NCBI GenBank assembly: GCA_963169805.1
Contig: CAUJDY010000118.1
Location: forward strand, 1 to 53,066
Direction: 5' to 3'
Source of the DNA: Bdellovibrionota bacterium
GTDB lineage: Bacteria; Bdellovibrionota; Bdellovibrionia; Bdellovibrionales; JAEYZS01
Length of the DNA stretch: 53,066 nucleotides
Shown here: one piece after another, positions 17,562-37,280 of the stretch
How the letters are laid out: each line of letters begins with the position of its first letter
Position numbering within the stretch: position 1 is the stretch's first letter
Notes under the pieces: model-generated
Database searches by the model: none
Told to the model about the DNA's origin: nothing
What the model saw: only the letters and a program-made list of their open reading frames with translations
Program-made: the position numbers and the translations under genes

Positions 17562-17572
17562 CGCGGATCTAC

Positions 17573-17600
17573 ACCAAACGGTACGGCGTACCTTTTTGGT
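17573..17600. terminator. Hairpin terminator between convergent genes
   Basis: ACCAAAcGGTAC-ggc-GTACCTTTTTGGT, one bulged region, ends on the minus-strand stop codon. Confidence 0.6.
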
Positions 17601-34496: not shown

Positions 34497-35321
34497 GTGA
34501 AAAAACCCAGTCTTGAATCAAACAAAATTGAAGAATTGTGGCTGGGTCAATCTACAGATCTCCTTAAGGAACTTCATATTCTGACACGAGATGGGAAGCT
34601 GAATCAGGATTCCAGACGAAAGCTCAAGCAAGTTTACCATCTTTGCCAACTTATCGAGCCCTACTTAGAGAATTTATTTAAGAAAAATCCTAATCCTACC
34701 ATTGTAGACATTGGCTGTGGAAAATCTTATCTAGGTTTTATGCTCTATGATTTATTCTTACGACATAAAGACAGTGGTCAGATAATTGGAATCGAAATAC
34801 GCGAAGACCTTCAGAAAAAATCTCAACAATTGGCTCAAAAATCTGGATTCCAGAGAATGAGTTTTTTAGTTCAGAATACTCAGGAGATGAAACTCCCCGT
34901 GAAACCTGATTTCGTTTGCGCACTACACGCATGCGATACTGCAACAGATGACGCTATTCTGCAGGCTATTGAAGCGGAAGCCCAAGTTATTGCAGTGGTC
35001 CCATGTTGCCAGGCAGAGGTTTCTCGACTGTTAGAGCAAATCGAAAAAAATAGCCTTTGGGAATACCCTATCCACAGACGTGAATTTGGGAGCCATCTAA
35101 CAAATGTCATCCGATGCCTGGTCTTAAAATCTCTCGGATATCAAGTCACAGTTACAGAGCTTGTTGGGTGGGAGCACTCTCTTAAAAATGAAATTATTTT
35201 GGCAGAAAAGACCCATTCAGAGAACAAAATTGCCCAACAGAGACTACAACAACTTCTGACCCAAATTCCCATCAAACCCAAACTCATCCAAAAGGTACCA
35301 GGTCGCTTTTCCGAATTATGA
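34497..35321 (+). CDS. Class I SAM methyltransferase, METTL25/TRM13-like
   Basis: GTG start; TIVDIGCGKSYLGFMLYDLFL...IIGIEIREDL...FVCALHACDTATDDAI...VVPCCQAE. Confidence 0.75.
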   Translation: MKKPSLESNKIEELWLGQSTDLLKELHILTRDGKLNQDSRRKLKQVYHLCQLIEPYLENLFKKNPNPTIVDIGCGKSYLGFMLYDLFLRHKDSGQIIGIEIREDLQKKSQQLAQKSGFQRMSFLVQNTQEMKLPVKPDFVCALHACDTATDDAILQAIEAEAQVIAVVPCCQAEVSRLLEQIEKNSLWEYPIHRREFGSHLTNVIRCLVLKSLGYQVTVTELVGWEHSLKNEIILAEKTHSENKIAQQRLQQLLTQIPIKPKLIQKVPGRFSEL

Positions 35322-35436
35322 GGGTTATTTTACATTTGAGCTGTAAGAATTTCTTGTTATATAATTTCAAGAAATTCTTACAGCTCAAATCAAAATTAGA
35401 CTGGGAGATTCGGAAAAGCGACCTGGTACCTTTTGG
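35288..35436. repeat. Nested perfect inverted repeat covering the 3' end of the methyltransferase gene
   Basis: Outer arms 35288-35316/35408-35436 (29/29); inner arms 35334-35356/35368-35390 (23/23); loop 35357-35367; equal 17-nt spacers on each side. Confidence 0.93.
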
Positions 35437-35564
35437 GGGACGTTTTTGAGCCTACCGTTTACAATTTATTCAGATAAAGGAGCCTAGAATCAAATAGTTA
35501 GCTTACCTGCAGGCATCTGGTTTGCTTTTAGAATAGTGGCCCCACGTGAGGGTAAAGGATCGAT

Positions 35565-37259: not shown

Positions 37260-37280
37260 AAGGCACAATACCTTTTACTT
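37254..37280. terminator. Hairpin terminator overlapping both convergent stop codons
   Basis: AAGTAAAAGG-cacaata-CCTTTTACTT, perfect 10 bp; plus-strand TAA 37257-37259 and minus-strand stop 37275-37277 both lie in the arms. Confidence 0.75.

Follow-up and report, generated by a model that had tools for sequence, protein, structure and literature searches.

The 3' end of a methyltransferase gene (34497 to 35321, forward strand; PF13679, Methyltransf_32, E = 1.2e-44) runs into a long nested palindrome in the window, that is, the whole analysed stretch of 53,066 nucleotides, and the question is what this palindrome is and how it came to lie there. Its geometry was as originally described: the outer arms (35288 to 35316 and 35408 to 35436) were 29 nt long and 100% complementary, the inner arms (35334 to 35356 and 35368 to 35390) were perfect over 23 nt, and the spacers between them (35317 to 35333 and 35391 to 35407) both measured 17 nt, which makes the two palindromes concentric. 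The inner arms were part of a longer match of 31 nt (35326 to 35356 and 35368 to 35398; 90%), and the outer arms include the flanking CC and GG, so that the element proper (AAAAGGTACC...GGTACCTTTT, no strand assigned) spans 35290 to 35434. It consists of two terminal inverted repeats (TIRs) of ~67 nt in head-to-head orientation, separated by an 11-nt loop (35357 to 35367, no strand assigned). The left TIR (35290 to 35356, forward strand) starts with an outer part, GGTACCAGGTCGCTTTTCCGAAT, that is nearly invariant among copies, and continues ..GGGTTATTTT..ATTTGAGCTGTAAGAATTTCTTG; the right TIR (35368 to 35434, reverse strand) is its inverted copy. The proposed folding of the transcript into a rod of stems was borne out by a predicted RNA fold of -90.2 kcal/mol, against -28.3 +/- 3.6 in dinucleotide shuffles (z = -17), with 0 of 200 shuffles folding as well; the palindrome is not due to chance. 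A terminator scan of the palindrome yielded no terminator-like (intrinsic) site, in agreement with the original remark that a clear T tract is missing, although the right arm contains TTTT and a TTTTT lies at 35443 to 35447. An RNA-family search with the palindrome gave matches below the gathering score only, mostly look-alikes of microRNA precursors, as the palindrome is a long hairpin.

Perfect arms, and an outer arm that overlaps codons, are what a single duplication of the methyltransferase 3' end by template switching would leave. However, when the 191-bp region was compared with the window's own genome (G000; 2.38 Mb in 159 contigs), the palindrome recurred, with 41 matches at about 20 places beside unrelated genes, and methyltransferase homologues were without the tail. 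This genome-wide family refutes a product of template switching or one-off rearrangement, to which we assign next to no probability. The 24-mer GGTACCAGGTCGCTTTTCCGAATT, searched with at most 3 mismatches, gave 26 matches versus 0 for a control pattern read backwards. A sister subfamily (GGTACCTGGTYAC...) brought additional copies, making a total of about 25 sites for both subfamilies, counted in a fragmented assembly (159 contigs) in which several copies lie near contig ends.

Compact copies of ~145 bp resembling that in the window were found on contigs C50, C64, C19, C63, and C72. Longer copies of 430 bp (C89), 458 bp (C8), and 918 bp (C144) retained the ends and not the compact hairpin. Among copies the outer ~24 nt were nearly invariant, while the interior and the inner arms varied from copy to copy. 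No transposase relics were found inside the 430- and 458-bp copies. Solitary single arms were present at six loci (L015, L016, L017, L019, L021, and L022), where no second arm lay within the fetched stretch; their outer end faced the stop or 3' end of the neighbouring gene where such a gene was present. Single-arm copies are unexpected for a simple two-ended mobile unit and count against the explanation that we prefer below. Homogenisation between the arms of a copy was significant when both subfamilies were pooled, but within subfamilies it was so in the CTGG subfamily only (P = 0.01 over 24 nt; 0.07 over 36 nt), and we do not claim it.

The 918-bp copy (G000:C144:758-1675) contained a single gene, encoding a 221-amino-acid Y1_Tnp protein (PF01797, above the cut-off) and bounded by the same arms of ~50 nt as in the palindrome family (TIRs of 57 nt, 96.5%). 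The protein matched Escherichia coli TnpA-REP (4er8; E = 2.6e-4), and the alignment covered the HxH motif as well as a tyrosine within the stretch KYVYRNP. By its HUH motif, its catalytic-tyrosine region, and its similarity to TnpA-REP, it classifies as a transposase of the RAYT type (TnpA-REP, Y1/HUH). Seven further Y1_Tnp matches were present in G000, of which four were RAYT paralogues with TIRs of their own of 31 to 50 nt. The combination of TIRs, palindrome, and small size also resembles a miniature element (MITE) of a DDE-type insertion sequence; yet the gene inside the full-length TIR pair encodes a Y1/HUH and not a DDE enzyme, and no direct target duplications were seen at the element ends when the flanks were read by eye, which leaves this origin very improbable. 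Two adjacent RAYT-like genes lay between short GTGCCTGGCACC repeats on C51 (L102 / L040, L042). The window itself carried a hairpin, CCAAACGGTACGGCGTACCTTTTTGG, at 17562 to 17598 between the stop codons of two convergent open reading frames (ORFs), matching the TIR hairpin of another RAYT of G000 (C135), and a REP-like hairpin, AAAAGGCACAATACCTTTT, at 37260 to 37274 in the gap between convergent M74 peptidase and MscL-like genes, resembling the TIR hairpin AAAAAGGTAACAATTACCTTTTT of the RAYT on C85.

The palindrome family was not found in the other genomes searched, and an exact GTDB-wide scan, which may omit the host's own records, returned only 2 single matches in unrelated bacteria. Such absence from relatives is expected, since REP families turn over fast. 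RAYT homologues were present in 44 of 60 genomes across the order, and TIRs were detectable at 25 of the 29 RAYT loci fetched from other genomes. In the relatives, no empty counterpart was found for the window copy, which weighs against its being mobile. At the C72 copy, a convergent gene pair (...PNFSF*/...LLAF*) was occupied by the element in G000 and element-free in G004 and G006, with the same two proteins, corresponding C termini, and a stop-to-stop gap of 32 nt and 5 nt, respectively; C72 is a filled site with empty counterparts, as expected of a mobile element. Likewise, rsmI ended in ...FILLLY* at the C144 element of G000 and in ...FILLVY* without an element in G002; in these cases, the ones open to checking, the genes have their expected ends. 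The interval between kdsD and polA held the 458-bp copy in G000; in G002 it held a RAYT element that had another TIR and lay directly against the polA stop, and the two may either share a common origin or be separate insertions at this position. (The names kdsD, polA, rsmI, GNAT, and RND were given by eye; Pfam matches underlie the rsmI-type TP_methylase and DUF2063.) Next to this G002 RAYT (L158, 1383 to 2671), an acetyltransferase-like ORF read into the TIR (KKGTP*). In genus g15, seven RAYT loci (L116, L118, L120, L121, L123, L124, and L126) had the same conserved surroundings, each following immediately on a GC-rich hairpin that carries a T run, and the ORFs flanking L118 on either side have flagellin-like ends by eye; together this suggests a single inherited locus.

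Given the dispersed family, a cognate transposase gene between the same TIRs, and an empty site for another copy, the palindrome is very probably a non-autonomous mobile repeat of the RAYT/TIRYT type (~145 bp, a REPIN-like dimer of TIRs) mobilised in trans, in line with the option of a small mobile or MITE-like element in the original prediction. The Correia/NEMIS repeats of Neisseria are MITEs of ~100 to 155 bp with TIRs and palindromic transcripts, and, compared by description only, the window element resembles them in size class, TIRs, and palindromic transcripts. RAYT-like genes flanked by long TIRs (TIRtrons), with TIR families occurring as singles and dimers, have been described, as have REPs that lie between convergent genes at 20 bp or less from each of the two 3' ends, and GTAG REPs that provide TAG stops from their own ends (Di Nocera et al. 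2013, PMC3733652). The present family shares with TIRtrons a RAYT-like Y1 gene between long, in some cases self-complementary, TIRs, the dispersal of TIR repeats singly and as dimers, and REPs near gene 3' ends (PMC3733652). By its sequence features it counts among them, with Y1 genes bounded by long TIRs at C144 and in the four paralogues, and with dispersed TIRs. It differs from them in TIR sequence, having no GGGGWSAS motif and reading GGGGTTAT there, and in that most junctions between element and gene are TAA and not TAG (PMC3733652). As in the REPINs or BIMEs mobilised by RAYT (Bertels & Rainey 2011, PMC3116915), an inverted pair of hairpin-bearing repeats forms one long hairpin and a cognate RAYT resides in the same genome, so that the element is a REPIN in the wide sense; however, its ~67-nt arms are longer than typical REPs, and there are tens of copies, not hundreds. 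GTAG or GTGG, the classical REP/REPIN signature, was not seen at the foot of the arms when these were read by eye, and the lack of the GTAG guide counts against the preferred explanation. Rickettsia palindromic elements (discussed in PMC3733652) likewise join reading frames, whereas the present elements lie at gene ends, add a short tail, and have a cognate transposase. The kind of element is already known (TIRtron-like) and the sequence family is new; the part worth pursuing is its base-precise association with stop codons.

We assessed this association at 43 element ends from 27 contig sites, sister subfamily included. A stop was scored as abutting when an ORF of at least 90 amino acids ran towards the element and ended in the last 15 nt before GGTACC; ORFs still open at the boundary of the retrieved sequence were also scored, with length counted from that boundary. 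An inward-facing stop abutted 25 of 43 element ends, compared to 0.9% of random points (275 kb of the same genome) and 2.6% of insertions simulated at all CTAG sites. Inward stops at both ends were found in 6 of 16 two-ended copies, versus 0.08% (random points) and 0.4% (CTAG sites). TAA, positioned precisely at -3 or -5 from GGTACC, was the commonest abutting stop, and a T preceded the A run at 31 of 43 ends (as part of CT at 16 of 43). Convergent gene pairs in G000, called by a simple longest-ORF rule, had a median gap of 11.5 nt, and 4 of 46 overlapped by 4 nt. As such pairs are tight at baseline, selection against gene disruption, combined with a (C)T junction, can explain the placement. 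A bolder reading, in which the transposase family effectively targets places where the stop codons of convergent genes overlap (YT^AR, for example CTAG) throughout the bacterial order, is tentative and on the doubtful side; if it were true, the ends would rebuild both stops (TAA...TTA) and provide a built-in safe harbour at gene ends.

The strong concentration of copies at gene 3' ends and in the gaps of convergent pairs, the very stable fold, and the symmetry given by A-tract and T-tract ends would also fit a functional RNA, either a terminator or a 3' hairpin acting in mRNA stability or RNase III processing, that spread by its usefulness, with mobility being secondary. Yet no intrinsic terminator was detected, the conserved part is the outer ~24 nt, as recognition by a transposase predicts, with inner arms free to vary, a transposase gene lies between TIRs of this family, and the 430-, 458-, and 918-bp copies keep the ends without the compact hairpin. 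Since much of the placement is in addition explained by selection against insertion inside genes, we consider this origin unlikely; for a mobile repeat, a role in RNase III processing or mRNA stability would be secondary.

The original prediction had the palindrome incorporating the last codons of the methyltransferase gene. The overlap is real; the relation is the reverse, in that the element overlies the 3' end of the gene and contributes its final ~10 codons. The protein ends in ...QKVPGRFSEL, and its tail (Q-KVPGRFSEL-stop, 35289 to 35321, forward strand) comprises a Q codon spanning the boundary, a remainder read from the element, and a TGA at 35319 to 35321, just inside the outer arm. 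The CAA codon (35289 to 35291, forward strand) lies at -5 from GGTACC, where gene-adjacent copies with AAAA ends usually have TAA, and is a candidate lost stop: it is in frame with the methyltransferase, and a single T-to-C change (TAA to CAA) would give the present read-through tail. The flanks of the window copy read CC|AAAA...TTTT|GG, and the usual (C)T|A junction is absent on both sides, which counts against the mobile reading. The tail may have arisen by stop loss, TAA to CAA at -5, and insertion into CC^GG with replacement of a native end, ...LIRGRF*, is an equally good alternative. Homologues in relatives had variable tails soon after a matching KL(F/L/I) stretch, none with the element tail, and therefore the tail is probably not ancestral, as judged from these C termini, which pointed to no fixed original end. 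Comparable tails read from an element were found in an RND-transporter-like protein (by eye) at C63, ending in ...KKVPGHF*, and in the acetyltransferase-like ORF of G002 (...LKKGTP*).

For a mobile repeat, we infer the following course. The C144 transposase, a Y1/HUH enzyme of single-stranded DNA, would mobilise TIR dimers in trans, recognising the near-invariant outer ~24 nt in single-stranded form with a small hairpin (AAAAG..CTTTT) inside, and would insert the element directly after a (C)T dinucleotide, with no duplication of the target; the cleavage site is deduced likewise, and TnpA-REP enzymes cleave at CT (PMC8266576). When the element enters just after the T of a stop codon, its leading A's would restore TAA, and this would allow copies to survive at the 3' ends of genes, above all between convergent genes with overlapping or nearly touching stops. 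In the window copy the stop position reads CAA, and translation would continue ~10 codons into the element, to TGA.

What was an odd palindrome can thereby be tested as an element for which a transposase is named, and the RAYT/TIR elements of G000 prove to be positioned on stop codons to the exact base. If this positioning stems from target choice in addition to selection, it would explain how repeats spread in a genome that is 90% coding without breaking genes, and how genes gain short tails encoded by the element.
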